Shown: positions 1,095-8,021 of the stretch, one piece after another
Position numbering within the stretch: position 1 is the stretch's first letter
How the letters are laid out: each line of letters begins with the position of its first letter
Origin: a virus
Strand: one strand, 5' to 3'
Virus record (IMG/VR): IMGVR_UViG_3300034642_000070
Coordinates: 1-20,474 of that record
DNA: 20,474 bases
Made by a program: the position numbers and the translations under genes
The notes under the pieces: model-generated
What the model saw: the letters and a program-made list of their open reading frames with translations, nothing else
What the model was told of the DNA's origin: nothing
Databases searched by the model: none

Positions 1095-3569
1095 ATGCAA
1101 TTTTATACGAATGTTGCCCAATGGGGTAATCAAATCCTTGTTCGTGAATATAAAAATGGTGAGAGAGTTAATCGTAAGGTTAAGTACTCTCCTACTATGT
1201 ACGTTCCAGTTCAGAAAGAAACTGAATGGAAAACACTTGATGGTAAGTATGCAACACCATACAAATTTGACACTATCAAAGAAACAAAGTCATTCATAGA
1301 ACAATACAAACAACAACCTCATCTGGTTTTTGGTCTGGATAGGTTTGCATATACATATCTTTCAGATACATATCCCAACAATGTCAATTGGGATAATGAT
1401 AAAATCCTAACAGTTACAATCGACATTGAGACAAAAGCGGACAATGGTTTCCCAGACCCAGAGAAGGCTGAGGAAGAGATGCTCGCAATCACTGTTAAAA
1501 ATCAAACCACAAAAAAGATTATATTGTGGGGTATTGGTGATTTCAAAAACGATAGAGATGACGTTACATATGTAAACTGTTCAAACGAAAATGAACTACT
1601 TGCGAACTTCATGAACTTCTGGACTAAACACTATCCAGATGTTGTCACTGGTTGGAATACTGAATTCTTTGATATTCCTTATTTGATTAATCGTGTTACC
1701 AAGGTTCTTGGTGAAGACAGGGCCAAAGAGTTTTCTCCTTGGGGTTTGATTAGTTCTAGAAAAGTATTTAATCATGGTCGTGACCAACAAGTATATGATA
1801 TCACTGGTGTTGCAAATCTTGATTATCTACAACTCTATCGTAAGTTTACTTACACAAACCAAGAGAGTTATGCACTTAATCATATTGCGTTTGTTGAACT
1901 TGGTCAGAAGAAGAATGAAAACCCATACGAAACCTTCCAAGAGTGGTACACAAAGGATTATCAATCCTTCCTAGAATATAATATCGTTGACGTTGAACTT
2001 GTTGACCGTCTTGAAGATAAGATGAAGTTACTTGAACTTTGTTTGACTATGGCTTATGAAGCGAAAGTAAACTATGAAGATGTATTCGGTCAAGTTAAGT
2101 ATTGGGATGTTCTCATTCACAATTACCTCAAGAACAAAAAGATTGTGATTCCACAAAAGTCTAGTTCTTCTAAGTCAGAAAAGTTTGAAGGTGCATATGT
2201 AAAAGAACCACAAGTTGGTCAACACAAATGGGTTATGTCATTTGACTTGAACTCACTATATCCACATTTAATTATGCAATATAATATGTCACCAGAAACA
2301 CTTGTCACTGGTGAATATATGAAACTAACTGTTGACAATATGTTACAAGAAGTTACACTTGACATTCCAGAACAAACGACTATCACACCAAACGGTGCAT
2401 TGTATCGTACAGACAAACTTGGTTTTCTACCAGAGATGATGCAAGAGATTTACAATGACCGTACTGTTTATAAGAAAAAGATGTTGAAGGCTAAACAAGA
2501 TTATGAGGATACCAAAGACTCTAAGTACCTTAAATATATTAGTCGTTATAACAACATTCAGATGGCTCGTAAGATATCACTCAACTCGGCATATGGTGCG
2601 ATTGGTAATCAATACTTTCGTTACTATGACCTTGCGATTGCAGAGGGTATTACAACTGCTGGTCAGTTATCTATTCGTTGGATTGAAAAGAAAATTAATC
2701 AGTATCTAAACAAGTTGCTAAATACTGATAAGGATTATGTGATTGCATCTGACACAGACTCAATCTATGTCACATTTGATGAGTTGATACAGAAAGTCAA
2801 TCCAAAGAATCCTATTGACTTTTTGGATACGATTGCAAAAGAAAAGATTGAACCGTTTATTGACAAGTCGTACAAACAACTTGCAGATTATGTTCATGCA
2901 TATGACCAAAAGATGTTTATGAAAAGAGAAGTGATTGCAGACAAAGGTATTTGGACTGCAAAGAAAAGATATATTCTAAACGCATGGGATGTTGAGGGTG
3001 TTCGATACAAAGAACCATCACTCAAGATTATGGGTATCGAGGCTGTCAAGTCTTCAACGCCTGCACCATGTCGTGAGAAGATTAAGGAAGCATTAACCAT
3101 AATTATGGGAGGTGATGAAAAACAATTAAATGACTTCCTTATTACATTTCGTGATGAGTTTAATAAGTTGCCACCAGAAGAGATTGCGTATCCACGTTCT
3201 TGTAACGGTATTCGTAAGTTTCGTTCTGAAAGTTCTATTTTCCAAAAGGGTACACCCATGCATATTAAAGGTGGGTTAGTTTACAACCATTTGGTTAAAG
3301 AAAAGAAACTATCACACAAGTATCCTATCATACAAGATGGAGACAAAATTAAGTATTTAGAATTACGACAACCGAATCCTATTGGCTGTAATGTTATTTC
3401 CTTTATGACAAAAGTTCCAAAAGAACTTGACATTCACAAATACATTTGTTATGATAGCCAATATGAAAAGAGTTTCATAGACCCACTATCTTTTATTACT
3501 AATAATATTGGTTGGAAGATAGACAGGTCTTTTGGAACTCAAACTACATTAGAGGATTTTTTTAGTTAA
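1095..3569 (+). CDS. 43: Family B DNA polymerase with 3'-5' exonuclease (gp43)
   Basis: This is the phage replicative DNA polymerase. Exonuclease motifs: Exo I D110-I-E112, Exo II around N188-T-E-F-F-D193, Exo III around Y295-N-I-V-D299. Polymerase motifs: motif A D384-L-N-S-L-Y-P, motif B R492-K-I-S-L-N-S-A-Y-G, motif C D553-T-D-S. At 824 aa it is somewhat shorter than T4 gp43 (about 900). The C-terminus reads QTTLEDFFS, a good PIP-box-like Q-x-x-L-x-x-F-F match, expected to dock on the sliding clamp. No intein or split is seen. TAAGGTGAT lies 12 nt before the ATG. The next gene starts on the last base of the stop codon (TAATG), implying coupled translation. T4 gp43 represses its own translation through an upstream hairpin, but I see no clear hairpin in the 31-nt gap here. 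Confidence 0.97.
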   Translation: MQFYTNVAQWGNQILVREYKNGERVNRKVKYSPTMYVPVQKETEWKTLDGKYATPYKFDTIKETKSFIEQYKQQPHLVFGLDRFAYTYLSDTYPNNVNWDNDKILTVTIDIETKADNGFPDPEKAEEEMLAITVKNQTTKKIILWGIGDFKNDRDDVTYVNCSNENELLANFMNFWTKHYPDVVTGWNTEFFDIPYLINRVTKVLGEDRAKEFSPWGLISSRKVFNHGRDQQVYDITGVANLDYLQLYRKFTYTNQESYALNHIAFVELGQKKNENPYETFQEWYTKDYQSFLEYNIVDVELVDRLEDKMKLLELCLTMAYEAKVNYEDVFGQVKYWDVLIHNYLKNKKIVIPQKSSSSKSEKFEGAYVKEPQVGQHKWVMSFDLNSLYPHLIMQYNMSPETLVTGEYMKLTVDNMLQEVTLDIPEQTTITPNGALYRTDKLGFLPEMMQEIYNDRTVYKKKMLKAKQDYEDTKDSKYLKYISRYNNIQMARKISLNSAYGAIGNQYFRYYDLAIAEGITTAGQLSIRWIEKKINQYLNKLLNTDKDYVIASDTDSIYVTFDELIQKVNPKNPIDFLDTIAKEKIEPFIDKSYKQLADYVHAYDQKMFMKREVIADKGIWTAKKRYILNAWDVEGVRYKEPSLKIMGIEAVKSSTPAPCREKIKEALTIIMGGDEKQLNDFLITFRDEFNKLPPEEIAYPRSCNGIRKFRSESSIFQKGTPMHIKGGLVYNHLVKEKKLSHKYPIIQDGDKIKYLELRQPNPIGCNVISFMTKVPKELDIHKYICYDSQYEKSFIDPLSFITNNIGWKIDRSFGTQTTLEDFFS

Positions 3570-4936
3570 TGACTAATGATGAAATACAAACTTTTATAGA
3601 AAATCTCACTTGGGATAAAGTAAAAGATTTACCACATGATAATAATCGTATCTCTCATATTAATATTTCTGGTGAAAAATATGATGCTTACTTGTATGTT
3701 GTTATTATTAACTCAAATAAAAAAACACACAAGTATTTTGGATATGAAAAGTCAACTCATTTTATAGTAAGTTATACTGGAACACCAGTAACACATATTG
3801 ATGAATATTCTCAAGATTTATTAAATTATGAATATAGGATTATTTGTTTAGCAATAGGTGAAGAAAGACAGATTAGAATTAAGGAAGGTGATATGTTAGA
3901 AATAGTAAAAAAAGATGATGAATTTTATAATGAAGGGTCTTCTACTTTTTTAAAAGGTTACACTCCTCATAAAGCTGTAAAAAGAGTTCTAAAGGAACTT
4001 CCTAATATTAAAGAGATAACTTTACCAGCAAAAGAATGGCAAGATATGAAAAGGTTTCAGACAAGACTTGTTCCAGAAGAACCTGGCCTTGTTGCTACAC
4101 TTAAACTATTAGATGAAGATTCAAAAGGTAAATACTTTAGGGATAATCATAAAGGTGTTGTTGCCTTAGAAGATTATCATGGGAAGGGTAAACATCTTAG
4201 ATACGGTTCTTATCATACCATTGAAATGAGTGTTGACTCAAAATACACAAAAGAGTTAAAAGGTAAATTGATTCCTAAAAATGTATGGAAAGGTATAGAT
4301 ATATTAGGTATTGAATATCTTGCAGATGCAGATAATAAAAGAAATGATGAAAATGCAAGAGTTCCTACTGAAATACCCAAAGCTTTAGATTGGTGTATGC
4401 GTGTTATGGATACTTACAAAGTTCATCATACGGATGATATGATTAAAGATTATCTAAGGGATTGTGGGTTTAGAAACGCAGAAATGCAAAAAATCTTTTG
4501 GCCAAAGTTAAGAGTATACACTGAGGGAAAAGTAAAGGTAAAAGATATTCCAGTTGGACATCAATTGGTAGATTATCATAAAACAAAAGCTGGTCAACAA
4601 CGAGTTATAGATAAAAAAAAGAAATGGGAAAGTGATGATTGTCATTGTTTAGTTTTGGGTACAAGTTATTTTCATAATGATTGGGAAGGTATCCCAGAAA
4701 TAGTATTTGATTTATCAAATGATGAACTATTGAAAAAGAAGTTTTGGAAAATATTTACTTTCCACAAAAATAGTGATGCAAAGGAAAACTGGCCAGAAAG
4801 ACTAGTCATTGTAGAAAAATGGTTAACTGATTTAATTAATAAGTTTTCAGATGAAAATCAAATAAAATTTGATATCGAAGCACTTCCATATTCAGAACCA
4901 AAAGAAAAACTCTTAAATGATAAAAAAGCTGCTTAA
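3569..4936 (+). CDS. Unknown protein, possible GIY-YIG-like N-terminal domain
   Basis: I do not recognise this 455-aa protein with confidence. Its N-terminus has a faint GIY-YIG nuclease pattern: a hydrophobic strand YLYVVI (41-46), KKTHKYFGYEKS (51-62) in the position of the YIG strand, a glutamate (E106) after a helix, and YN (120-121) about where these domains usually end. The canonical arginine is not obvious, so catalysis is uncertain. The rest is mixed alpha/beta and Lys/Glu-rich, with a patch of His and Cys (DDCHCLVLGTSYFHNDW) near residues 350-370. It overlaps the stop of gp43 by 1 nt and the next gene by 20 nt, so it is in one translational unit with the putative DNA-modification genes. 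A modification partner, a homing-type nuclease or an immunity/exclusion factor are all possible; T4 has imm and 42 in this interval. Confidence 0.6.
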   Translation: MTNDEIQTFIENLTWDKVKDLPHDNNRISHINISGEKYDAYLYVVIINSNKKTHKYFGYEKSTHFIVSYTGTPVTHIDEYSQDLLNYEYRIICLAIGEERQIRIKEGDMLEIVKKDDEFYNEGSSTFLKGYTPHKAVKRVLKELPNIKEITLPAKEWQDMKRFQTRLVPEEPGLVATLKLLDEDSKGKYFRDNHKGVVALEDYHGKGKHLRYGSYHTIEMSVDSKYTKELKGKLIPKNVWKGIDILGIEYLADADNKRNDENARVPTEIPKALDWCMRVMDTYKVHHTDDMIKDYLRDCGFRNAEMQKIFWPKLRVYTEGKVKVKDIPVGHQLVDYHKTKAGQQRVIDKKKKWESDDCHCLVLGTSYFHNDWEGIPEIVFDLSNDELLKKKFWKIFTFHKNSDAKENWPERLVIVEKWLTDLINKFSDENQIKFDIEALPYSEPKEKLLNDKKAA

Positions 4937-5777
4937 AAAACATATTAAAGATAATGTAAAAGATGATGTAGTTGCAGTGTTAATGTCTGGTGGAGTTGAT
5001 AGTCTATCAGTTGCGTTTGCAGCTCATGATGTGGGTAAAAAAGTAGTTGGATATACTTTCTGCTTAGGGGGTGATGAATCTTATGATTACCTAAAAGCAA
5101 AAGAAGTATGTGCTGACATGGGTTGGGAATGTAATTTATTTAATGTTCCCACAACAAACCTAGTAGATGATTGGCATAAACTTGTAAAATTAGGTTGTAG
5201 AAAAAAAACACACTTTGAGTGTGTTTTTCCATTCTTATATGTCTACCCAGACATTTATCAAAAGTATGTATTAACTGGCTGGGGTGCAGACGGATATTTT
5301 GGGCCATCTAAAAAAGCTATGATGCGATACTCCAGTTTCAAGAAGAAAAGAAATTATGTTGCATATTGTAAACGAGTAAATCAAAAAAGACTAAACTGGA
5401 ATGAGTTTAGAATTGAATACTTAGACGGTGATTGTGCTGGTTATAAAGAACACACTAGTCTTGCAAAACAATATAATAAAATTCATATTGCACCATACAA
5501 AGATAGTAAAAAGATTAGAGAATTACTTATGTCTAAAAGTTGGGTTGAACTCAACAAACCAAGACAAAAAGAAATTATAAGAAAAGACTTTACAAACCTA
5601 AAAAAGTATGGTACTATAAAACCTCATATAAATTTACATTTAGGTGCAAATATCAATAAGTTGTTTGAAACATTATTAGAAGATGTTGATATTAACTTCA
5701 ACGATAGAAAACGTATGATGGATGTTTGTAGAGATTGGTATGAAAAGAAAAACACTATTGAGGAGTTTATGAATTGA
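4917..5777 (+). CDS. Asparagine-synthetase-like PP-loop ATPase without glutaminase domain
   Basis: This is an N-type (PP-loop) ATP pyrophosphatase that should adenylate a carboxylate and pass it to an amine. The PP-loop is S24-G-G-V-D-S29 after a hydrophobic strand (VVAVLM). Asparagine-synthetase features follow: TGWGADGYFGP (120-130), matching the family S-G-E-G-[AS]-D-E-L-F-G-G loop; IHIAPYKD (189-196), like the V-x-x-P-F-L-D segment; and KPRQKEIIRKDF (214-225), like the K-x-x-L-R helix. At 286 aa it is only the synthetase half: the N-terminal glutamine amidotransferase domain of AsnB is absent, so ammonia or another amine would be the nucleophile. It overlaps the upstream gene by 20 nt and the downstream methyltransferase by 4 nt (TTGA). 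That coupling suggests it acts on a product of the methyltransferase/CmoA-like pair, a carboxylated base. QueC-like or tRNA-modifying PP-loop enzymes are alternatives, less favoured because of the AsnB-type segments. Confidence 0.8.
   Translation: MIKKLLKKHIKDNVKDDVVAVLMSGGVDSLSVAFAAHDVGKKVVGYTFCLGGDESYDYLKAKEVCADMGWECNLFNVPTTNLVDDWHKLVKLGCRKKTHFECVFPFLYVYPDIYQKYVLTGWGADGYFGPSKKAMMRYSSFKKKRNYVAYCKRVNQKRLNWNEFRIEYLDGDCAGYKEHTSLAKQYNKIHIAPYKDSKKIRELLMSKSWVELNKPRQKEIIRKDFTNLKKYGTIKPHINLHLGANINKLFETLLEDVDINFNDRKRMMDVCRDWYEKKNTIEEFMN
5204..5228 (+). other. Perfect stem-loop inside the AsnB-like gene, terminator-like
   Basis: An 11-bp perfect inverted repeat, AAAAACACACT then loop TTG then AGTGTGTTTTT, lies wholly inside coding sequence, encoding part of RKKTHFECVF. 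It is preceded by further A residues and ends in five T, so it resembles an intrinsic terminator in either direction, though the stem is AT-rich. It could attenuate transcription into the methyltransferase genes, act as an RNA-processing site, or be chance. No promoter or gene end is nearby. Confidence 0.4.
5760..5765 (+). promoter_or_regulatory. Ribosome binding site for the TTG-started methyltransferase
   Basis: GAGGAG lies 8 nt before the TTG at 5774. It is one of the strongest Shine-Dalgarno matches in the window and decides the start: no in-frame ATG occurs before methyltransferase motif I, and the TTG overlaps the upstream stop as TTGA. Confidence 0.7.
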
Positions 5778-6922
5778 AATATAAACCTTATTTACTAAAA
5801 GATGTATATGATGCATCTTCCCAAAAGAAGTTTGATGTAATATCAACCTTTGCTGGTGGTGGTGGAAGTTCCACTGGATATAAACTTGCTGGTGGTAATG
5901 TACTTGCAGTAAATGAGTTTGTAGAAGAAGCAAGAACTACCTATAATCAAAATTACCCAGAGACTCCAATATTACCAGATGACATTAAAAAGTTATCTGG
6001 TCATGAGTTTTTAGATATCACTGGAATAAAGTCTGGTGAATTAGATGTTTTAGATGGTAGTCCACCATGTTCTGCATTTAGTATGGCTGGTAATGTAAGT
6101 CATGGTAAAGGTAATTCACATAAAGATGCATTTGGTAAAACTAAAGGTTACAGTGATATTAAAGAAGTAACAAACGTAGAAGATTTATTCTTTGAGTTTC
6201 TTAGAGTTGCAGATGTTATCAAACCAAAAGTTATCATAGCAGAGAATGTCGCTGGTCTTACTATGGGTGAGGCCAAACAATATTTTAATAAGATACAAAA
6301 TACATTTGAAGATATTGGATATGATGTTTGTGCAAAGGTTTTAAACAGTGGATACTTTGGTGTACCACAAACTCGTAATCGTGTTTTCTTTATAGGTCTT
6401 AGAAATGATATTACTACAAAAGTTGGTTTGACTTTTATGAATATTCATAGTATATTTCCTAGTGAAAGTAAGTCTATGGTTAGACTTGGTGATGCTTTAG
6501 ATAATTTAGAATACGATAATGAAGAGGTACAAACACTGACAGAGAAGTTTTCTAAAACTGCATATTGGAAAGACACTGGTAGTAAGATGCCAGATAATCC
6601 AGATAAAGTTTTAACTGGTGCTGATTATCATCACAAAGGTCATCACTTTAATCTAAAAAGAGTATCACTTAATGCACCAGCTCCTACTCTTACTGCAATG
6701 GGTAGTAATGATACAACTGCTGGTGCATTTCATTGGAATGAACCTAGAAAACTTACAATAGGTGAATTGAAAAGAATACAATCTTTACCAGATGATTTTG
6801 TTCTCACTGGTAAATGGAATCAAAGGTCTGAACGTATTGGTAGAATGGTGCCACCATTACTATTAAAAGCGATTGCAGACTCAGTATATGATAATGTTAT
6901 TAAGGAATATAAGAATGGCTGA
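5774..6922 (+). CDS. DNA cytosine-C5 methyltransferase with Arg in motif X (candidate carboxymethyltransferase)
   Basis: This is a C5-cytosine DNA methyltransferase of 382 aa. Motif I is STFAGGGGSSTGYKLAGG (24-41). Motif IV holds the catalytic cysteine (D94-G-S-P-P-C99). Motif VI is E157-N-V, and motif VIII is Q199-T-R-N-R203. A target-recognition region with a His-rich YHHKGHHF (285-292) follows. Motif IX is RKLTIGELKRIQSLPDDF (325-342), and motif X is G356-R357-M-V-P-P361. All catalytic residues are intact. The unusual point is motif X: canonical enzymes have G-N-[SA]-V-P-P, and here the Asn, which lies by the SAM methionine moiety, is Arg. I recall that a basic residue at this position lets an engineered M.MpeI use carboxy-SAM and write 5-carboxymethylcytosine. 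The neighbouring CmoA-like gene, which overlaps by 8 nt, could supply that cofactor. The start is TTG with a strong GAGGAG site. Plain 5-methylcytosine formation remains the null hypothesis; the recognition sequence is unknown. Confidence 0.93.
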   Translation: MKYKPYLLKDVYDASSQKKFDVISTFAGGGGSSTGYKLAGGNVLAVNEFVEEARTTYNQNYPETPILPDDIKKLSGHEFLDITGIKSGELDVLDGSPPCSAFSMAGNVSHGKGNSHKDAFGKTKGYSDIKEVTNVEDLFFEFLRVADVIKPKVIIAENVAGLTMGEAKQYFNKIQNTFEDIGYDVCAKVLNSGYFGVPQTRNRVFFIGLRNDITTKVGLTFMNIHSIFPSESKSMVRLGDALDNLEYDNEEVQTLTEKFSKTAYWKDTGSKMPDNPDKVLTGADYHHKGHHFNLKRVSLNAPAPTLTAMGSNDTTAGAFHWNEPRKLTIGELKRIQSLPDDFVLTGKWNQRSERIGRMVPPLLLKAIADSVYDNVIKEYKNG

Positions 6923-7607
6923 TTTTACTTTTGCACATAGAGAAGAAGGATTTGATGAACACATAGAAAAATCTATTCGTGGTTATTCTCAACTCATGGA
7001 TGATGTTATATCATTGTCTCGACACTTTGTAGAGAAAGGAACAAGTGTAGTTGATATCGGTTGTTCTACTGGAAAGATGACCAAGGCCTTAATAGATTAT
7101 AATCTAGACCATATTGAAACTGGTGTAGAATTTATAGGTATTGAAATTGCAGATGGGTTTCAAAAGGATTTAAGGAAAAGAGAAGAAGAAATTAAGAAGT
7201 ATTATTCTAATGTTCACTTTGAACAAAGTGATGCACGTTACTATGAATATAAAGAATGTTCTCTAATTACTTCAATTTTTACCTTGCAATTTATGCCTAA
7301 ATGTGATAGAAAGGAAACACTACAATCTGTATATGATGGTTTGAACTCTGGTGGTGCATATATATTTGCAGAGAAAACAATTTGCGAAAATGCACTTGTA
7401 CAAGATATGATTACTTTTAATTACTATGATTACAAAAGAAAATCATTTACCACCGAAGATATTATGGATAAGGAACGTACTCTTAGACATATGATGAAAC
7501 CTAATACATGGAGAGAAATCGAAGATATGTTGATGGAAGTAGGTTTTGGTGTTGTACAACCTTTCTGGAGAAATCACGCATTTGTTGGTGCGTTGGCTGT
7601 AAAATAG
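6915..7607 (+). CDS. CmoA-like SAM enzyme (carboxy-SAM synthase family)
   Basis: This is a class I SAM-binding enzyme of 230 aa that looks specifically like CmoA, which converts SAM plus prephenate to carboxy-SAM for tRNA wobble-uridine modification. Compared with E. coli CmoA as I remember it, I see KSIRGYS (19-25) for RSVPGYS, motif I DIGCSTG (47-53) for DLGCSLG, IFTLQFM (121-127) for NFTLQFL, GLNSGGAYIFAEK (142-154) for GLNPGGALVLSEK, and FNYYDYKR (168-175) for FNMHHDFKR. No CmoB partner, tRNA-directed or otherwise, is in the window; a cytosine-C5 DNA methyltransferase precedes it instead. One caution: in an ungapped alignment the E. coli carboxylate-binding Arg (R199 by my count) falls on Glu187, with Arg188 one residue later. 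I chose ATG 6915, preceded by AAGGA (6902-6906), over an in-frame ATG at 6873 that would overlap the upstream gene by 50 nt. Confidence 0.82.
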   Translation: MADFTFAHREEGFDEHIEKSIRGYSQLMDDVISLSRHFVEKGTSVVDIGCSTGKMTKALIDYNLDHIETGVEFIGIEIADGFQKDLRKREEEIKKYYSNVHFEQSDARYYEYKECSLITSIFTLQFMPKCDRKETLQSVYDGLNSGGAYIFAEKTICENALVQDMITFNYYDYKRKSFTTEDIMDKERTLRHMMKPNTWREIEDMLMEVGFGVVQPFWRNHAFVGALAVK

Positions 7608-7616
7608 GAGAATAAT

Positions 7617-8021
7617 ATGGATGTTGATTTATTAAAAGATTATCAAGAATTTGTTGATGAAGTATCTAGTGATGCAACTAAAAATATTGATGATTTTGGT
7701 GATGCAGTAGATGTCATAGATGAAAATGGTGTTGAACCAACAAGGTTACTCACTGCATCTATCGGTCTATCTGGTGAAGTTGGTGAATTTAATGATATTG
7801 TAAAGAAGTGTTTCTTTCAAGGTAAAGAAATGGATGAGGATGTTGTCACTCATCTAAAATCAGAACTTGGTGATATTATGTGGTACATTGCACAAGGTTG
7901 TATTGCATTGGGAACTGATATTGAAGAACTGATTGATATTAATACTGCGAAACTTAAAGATAGATATCCAGAGGGATTTGATGGGTTTCGTTCTGACAAC
8001 AGAGATGAGGATGATATATAA
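7617..8021 (+). CDS. mazG: MazG-type nucleotide pyrophosphohydrolase
   Basis: This is an all-alpha NTP pyrophosphohydrolase of the MazG/dUTPase-like superfamily, 134 aa. The metal-binding set is visible: SGEVGE with E54 and E57, then SELGD with E83 and D86, followed by a helix and the [10 protein letters not shown] segment (112-121) typical of this family near the C-terminus. Members hydrolyse (d)NTPs or ppGpp-like nucleotides to monophosphates. In marine phages they have been proposed to tune nucleotide pools or stringent-response signals during infection. TAGGAG (7605-7610) gives a good ribosome site. The stop overlaps the uvsX start (TAATG), placing it in the replication transcript. The acidic C-terminal tail (DNRDEDDI) has no known role. 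Confidence 0.9.

Follow-up and report, generated by a model that had tools for sequence, protein, structure and literature searches.

The DNA analysed here is a virus record from IMG/VR (IMGVR_UViG_3300034642_000070, positions 1 to 20,474), called the window below over its whole length of 20,474 bases. It carries T4-type replication genes encoding a RimK-like ATP-grasp protein, a family B DNA polymerase, MazG, UvsX and a DnaB-type helicase. UvsX identities of 84.6% with Methylophilales phage Melnitz and 75.9% with Pelagibacter phage HTVC008M suggest that the source is an uncultured marine myophage belonging near these two. The interval between the polymerase and MazG genes is occupied by four overlapping genes:

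3569 to 4936, plus strand: protein with a predicted GIY-YIG-type domain (residues about 40-125) and a predicted ParB/sulfiredoxin-fold domain (about 150-260; AlphaFold2, Foldseek), called the slot protein below
4917 to 5777, plus strand: CmoY-like predicted ATP-dependent amide ligase (286 amino acids; PP-loop SGGVDS; no glutaminase domain; Pfam Asn_synthase, E = 7e-11)
5774 to 6922, plus strand: CmoX-like predicted DNA cytosine C5-carboxymethyltransferase (382 amino acids; nucleophile C99; putative carboxylate-binding R357; Pfam DNA_methylase, E = 6e-57)
6915 to 7607, plus strand: CmoA-like predicted carboxy-S-adenosylmethionine (carboxy-SAM) synthase (230 amino acids from the ATG at 6915; TIGR00740, E = 6e-34)

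A preliminary description of this DNA had recognised the last three as an AsnB-like, a C5-cytosine transferase and a CmoA-like gene, and had linked their products in a chain leading to an amide of carboxymethylcytosine. The open reading frames and the Pfam and TIGR00740 matches bear out the three assignments, with the CmoA start moved from TTG 6873 to ATG 6915, which lies within the last bases of CmoX, because homology begins there (MADF / MTYDF). Successive reading frames of the trio, in the order CmoY-CmoX-CmoA, share 4-8 bases, and this order and these overlaps indicate probable co-expression.

The same chain has been demonstrated biochemically for the CmoA/CmoX/CmoY trio of Synechococcus phage S-B43 (MN018232), with each of the three activities established (Yang et al., Nat Commun, Dec 2025; PMC12783734), and the idea of the pathway was thus already in print before the present analysis. 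In that system SpCmoA produces carboxy-SAM and is about 10 times faster than the E. coli enzyme EcCmoA, SpCmoX (crystal structure PDB 8YF3) forms 5-carboxymethylcytosine at GC sites by means of Arg350, and SpCmoY joins glycine, the glycyl product being present in native S-B43 DNA (PMC12783734). The window shares with S-B43 the three enzymes, their active-site residues, the adjacent overlapping genes and a nearby MazG-type gene, which adjoins the cassette in the window, in S-B43 and in relatives. It differs in gene order (CmoA-CmoY-CmoX in S-B43), in the putative ParB-nuclease gene that overlaps CmoY and has no counterpart in S-B43, and in the kind of phage, S-B43 being a cyanophage and the window phage Melnitz/HTVC008M-like. 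Such homology makes it very probable that the window cassette directs DNA hypermodification of the CmoA-CmoX-CmoY kind. The window contig may be among the 5,615 candidate CmoX sequences already listed, because IMG/VR was one of the sources searched (PMC12783734).

The trio is kept together in three gene orders over about 140 loci (individual loci are labelled L below). These were fetched with CmoA, CmoY or polymerase queries, so that linkage to CmoA is partly given by construction, whereas the contrast with TET described below is not. The window CmoX is 60% identical to SpCmoX, whose structure (PDB 8yf3) it matches far beyond chance (E = 4e-148), and all carboxy-SAM-binding and catalytic residues of SpCmoX are retained: the SPPC motif is present with C99 as the nucleophile, R357 aligns with Arg350 of motif X, and F26, E48, F49 and D70 correspond to the adenine and ribose contacts F25, E47, F48 and D69. 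The C-terminal third is partly conserved as well (e.g. DYHxKGHxFNxKR). Among 123 homologues of at least 300 amino acids from the fetched loci, these four contact residues are identical throughout, while the position of Arg350 holds Arg in 119 and Leu in one (L158), the remaining three having no residue there as their frames end with the contig. This arginine is the basic motif X residue of the preliminary description, and the CmoA-linked relatives for which that description suggested a search do exist, with Arg in 119/119 scorable CmoA/CmoY-linked homologues.

The Leu-type methyltransferase of L158 is followed by a TET/JBP-type oxygenase, with no CmoA on the fetched stretch. In Melnitz the C5-methyltransferase, 75% identical to that of L158, likewise has Leu at this position and precedes a homologous oxygenase (60%). 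Set against the 119 Arg-bearing homologues, these two cases suggest that Arg pairs with CmoA and Leu with TET in related backbones, as the carboxymethyl model predicts. The engineered carboxymethyltransferase M.MpeI N374K (cited in PMC12783734) is also a C5-methyltransferase that uses carboxy-SAM and has a basic motif X residue, but there the residue is an introduced Lys and the context CG, whereas the window CmoX is natural and has Arg. An ordinary 5-methylcytosine methyltransferase, with a functionally unconnected SAM enzyme as its neighbour and an amide ligase that works on some other target, would be allowed solely by general membership of the Pfam family. The Arg at motif X, the three-gene linkage, the close identity to proven enzymes and the complete rejection of SAM by SpCmoX (PMC12783734) make such an arrangement scarcely credible. 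A scan of bacterial genomes based on two peptide patterns found no CmoX, and GpC depletion, examined as a possible trace of modification at GC sites, was not informative (observed/expected 0.87). No CmoB was noticed among the window proteins, which carries little weight because the record is a fragment of 20.5 kb.

The window CmoA is 57% identical to the assayed SpCmoA and matches PDB entries 1im8, 4gek and 4iwn (E = 1e-21 to 5e-24). Its match to TIGR00740, found with the reading frame from TTG 6873 to 7607, reaches 117.7 bits and lies below the NCBIfam equivalog cut-off of 193 bits, a shortfall that probably reflects a divergent phage lineage of CmoA. Homology to bacterial CmoA (E. coli, and YecO of H. 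influenzae) extends over the full length, and the equivalents of Tyr39, Asp62, Gly64, Ser66 and Glu164 are kept in the window; Arg199, Asn132 and Asp89, by contrast, are replaced in the phage lineage by Glu, by Ile or Leu, and by Glu, respectively. In E. coli CmoA, Arg199 forms a salt bridge with the carboxylate of carboxy-SAM and has been proposed as a mark of the family (PMC3663124). Its position is Glu in 131/131 aligned phage CmoAs, including those of the window and the active SpCmoA, and the equivalents of Lys198, Tyr39, Asp62, Ser66 and Glu164 are kept in this alignment. Because SpCmoA lacks Arg199 and is yet faster than EcCmoA, the carboxylate must presumably be held by other means in phage CmoA. 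One guess, drawn from a single alignment, is that Arg22 acts as the substitute, being nearly invariant in phages and next to the Tyr39 equivalent, where E. coli has Pro. The loss of Arg199 in an active enzyme shows that residue-level reasoning from E. coli CmoA fails for this lineage.

The window CmoY is 45-46% identical to SpCmoY in a single pairwise comparison (276 amino acids, 221 bits, E = 2e-76), above the cluster threshold of about 30% identity used for these ligases (PMC12783734), and the residues invariant across 113 CmoY relatives are common to both proteins. Profile searches with Pfam and NCBIfam detected the synthetase part of this ligase and no glutaminase domain. On these grounds glycine, not ammonia, is the most likely amine and 5-glycylcarboxymethylcytosine the most likely product. 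The amidated carboxylate of the preliminary description is therefore retained, by homology to SpCmoY, while its carbamoyl form gives way to the glycyl one.

The same route to 5-carboxymethylcytosine could also end with a different amine, either another alpha-amino acid or ammonia. Ligase clusters with differing active-site residues have been reported (PMC12783734). In L005 and L035 a ligase of 472-474 amino acids stands directly before CmoX in the place of CmoY, that of L035 starting with MCGI as in the glutaminase type; it fits the second of the reported clusters, and a class-II glutaminase-AsnB of this kind would use ammonia. The modest identity of the window CmoY to SpCmoY, and its exchange among close relatives, point in the same direction, but the conserved residues shared with SpCmoY and, for ammonia, the missing glutaminase domain argue for glycine, so that another amine seems improbable.

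Some points weigh against assigning the window to the full CmoA-CmoX-CmoY pathway. The activities of its proteins are predicted from homology. Its CmoA has Glu in place of Arg199, as does SpCmoA, in which this is no block to activity. The amine specificity of its CmoY could differ, because CmoY is the most divergent of the three proteins (46%) and has been exchanged among close relatives, with L003, L004 and L027 pairing a CmoX 92-95% identical to the window's with a CmoY at just 42-44% identity. Together with the ligases of L005 and L035, these swaps suggest that the amine is an exchangeable property of the cassette.

In the proposed pathway, CmoA would convert SAM and prephenate, probably derived from the host, into carboxy-SAM. 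CmoX would then form a Cys-C6 adduct on a DNA cytosine and transfer the carboxymethyl group held by R357 to C5, giving 5-carboxymethylcytosine, probably in a GC context. CmoY would adenylate the carboxylate with ATP and join glycine to it, and the resulting 5-glycylcarboxymethylcytosine would shield the phage DNA against host nucleases. This chemistry is carried over from the S-B43 experiments by homology, on which we also base the GC context, the choice of glycine and the protective role proposed for the window phage.

The trio lies within an exchange site, with these further genes around it:

44 to 1063: RimK-like ATP-grasp ligase, adjoining the polymerase gene
1095 to 3569, plus strand: family B DNA polymerase (Pfam DNA_pol_B), left border of the exchange site
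7617 to 8021, plus strand: MazG-like pyrophosphohydrolase (Pfam MazG, E = 9e-9), right border of the exchange site and outside the chemistry

In relatives found with the window polymerase as query, whose polymerases are 80-96% identical to it, the interval from polymerase to MazG/UvsX contains different sets. L152 has an N6/N4-type DNA methylase with a pyridoxal-phosphate-type enzyme, L167 such a methylase with another short gene, L155 and L159 a DruA-like protein and glycosyltransferase-type genes (in L159 a TET-associated glycosyltransferase), and L158 its methyltransferase-TET pair. DNA identity to relatives ends at base 3562-3564, the end of the polymerase gene, and most of the more distant polymerases are directly followed by UvsX. 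The Cmo trio is thus one of several interchangeable sets at a modification site. Melnitz (MZ577097) resembles the window in its polymerase-MazG/RecA locus, in the RimK-like genes upstream and in a homologous putative ParB-nuclease gene, but has a C5-methyltransferase with Leu in motif X and a TET-type oxygenase where the window has CmoA/X/Y.

Several other observations were made at this site. The methyltransferase of Melnitz (L230) and the following TET/JBP-type oxygenase, which is unannotated, lie at 4010-6194, and since both are encoded, Melnitz DNA probably carries 5-hydroxymethylcytosine or a derivative. The RimK-like ligase of the window was considered as a glycine-extending step of the cassette and rejected, because RimK also lies 5' of the polymerase in Melnitz and in L152, L153, L156, L160, L173, L180 and L187, the latter seven with other modification sets; it is doubled in Melnitz, and its linkage is with the polymerase rather than with the modification set. 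A protein like DruA of the Druantia defence system occurs at the same exchange site in L159 (7130-8242; Pfam DruA, E = 3e-6) and in the cultured phage HTVC008M (KC465899, 99535-100659). Beside the DruA-like protein and glycosyltransferase of L155, the gene at 4687-5949 appears to combine a ParB-like domain with a motif that by eye looks like PD-(D/E)XK (IEVKC). In L083 (3869-5420) CmoY is directly followed by CmoA with no CmoX between, and CmoX may be located elsewhere in that genome or have been lost.

The slot gene overlaps the CmoY start by 20 bp and gave no significant match in Pfam, PHROGs or NCBIfam. Its AlphaFold2 model (predicted local distance difference test score, pLDDT, 78) matched ParB, KorB and sulfiredoxin in a Foldseek search of the PDB with a probability of 0.99-1.0 (E = 2e-3 or weaker), and among viral models it matched proteins named ParB/Srx and GIY-YIG. 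Y43, G58, E106 and N121 are conserved GIY-YIG-like positions, and the catalytic Arg is not evident. A homologue (24% identity over 412 amino acids) stands beside the methyltransferase/TET pair of Melnitz, and a similar GIY-YIG-plus-ParB protein stands beside the glycosyltransferases of L159.

Among 80 loci with an untruncated gene upstream of CmoY, 60 encode a large protein at this place, these proteins falling into eight families with no BLAST relationship to each other; in eight loci the slot is empty, polymerase or CmoA directly preceding CmoY. The slot genes usually overlap or abut the CmoY start and lie directly 5' of it in three differing gene orders. Cluster 1 has a C-terminal HNH part (profile against PDB 9lgi, E = 2e-4; PHROG matches to HNH/endonuclease VII) and is related to cluster 5 (hhalign, E = 5e-7); hhalign found no match between the remaining clusters, profile searches of the PDB gave no useful match besides this HNH part, and the AlphaFold2 model of cluster 1 (pLDDT 55) was too poor for use. 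ParB-like motifs were seen by eye in other clusters, which profile comparison did not confirm. Exchange at the slot is gene-precise among near-identical cassettes: L011 is 92% identical in DNA to the window up to base 3564 and 89% identical from 4917, the CmoY start codon, with an unrelated gene between, and in L083, where a third unrelated gene fills the slot, the break points are identical.

Bacteria and phages are known to have proteins that fuse the ParB fold with HNH and methyltransferase domains. In the type IV restriction enzymes GmrSD, a ParB/Srx-fold part is joined to an HNH nuclease (PMC4619093). The slot families resemble GmrSD in combining such a fold with a nuclease (HNH in clusters 1 and 5). 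The window protein differs in having a GIY-YIG-like domain instead of HNH, in giving no match to DUF262 and in its setting beside a phage modification cassette, and the D-G-Q-Q-R NTPase motif of GmrSD is absent from it, the position reading G-S-Y-H-T. The gene may be read as a cassette-linked interference or homing nuclease. A free-standing homing endonuclease that spreads into an intergenic site, with no functional tie to the modification, is quite plausible: GIY-YIG and HNH proteins are the classic phage homing nucleases, empty sites occur, and 7 of 20 relatives match phrog_7504 and the relative in L159 phrog_314, both named 'homing endonuclease' (with weak E-values). Homing accords less well with the translational overlap and the position 5' of CmoY in three gene orders, with several unrelated families at one spot, each of which would need to target the same site, and with the linkage, in Melnitz and in L159, to different chemistries of modification. 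A modification-aware ParB-fold nuclease attacking DNA that lacks the phage's mark, from the host or a rival phage, is a more doubtful reading.

By these results the carboxymethylcytosine pathway would also occur in a second group of marine phages, the ecologically abundant relatives of OM43 and SAR11 phages. TET-linked methyltransferases with Leu, at the same locus and in closely related backbones, offer natural controls for the diagnostic Arg, and the Arg199 result corrects the residue used for recognising carboxy-SAM synthases; this loss and the slot gene are the parts that a specialist would find new. ParBc proteins near CmoX had been noted with function unknown (PMC12783734), and the fast-swapping putative ParB-nuclease partner turns that remark into a testable question. 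If the modification-aware reading were true, every hypermodification set would be accompanied by an exchangeable nuclease, and the locus would resemble a restriction-modification module carried by the phage, with a nuclease half that diversifies more rapidly than the chemistry.

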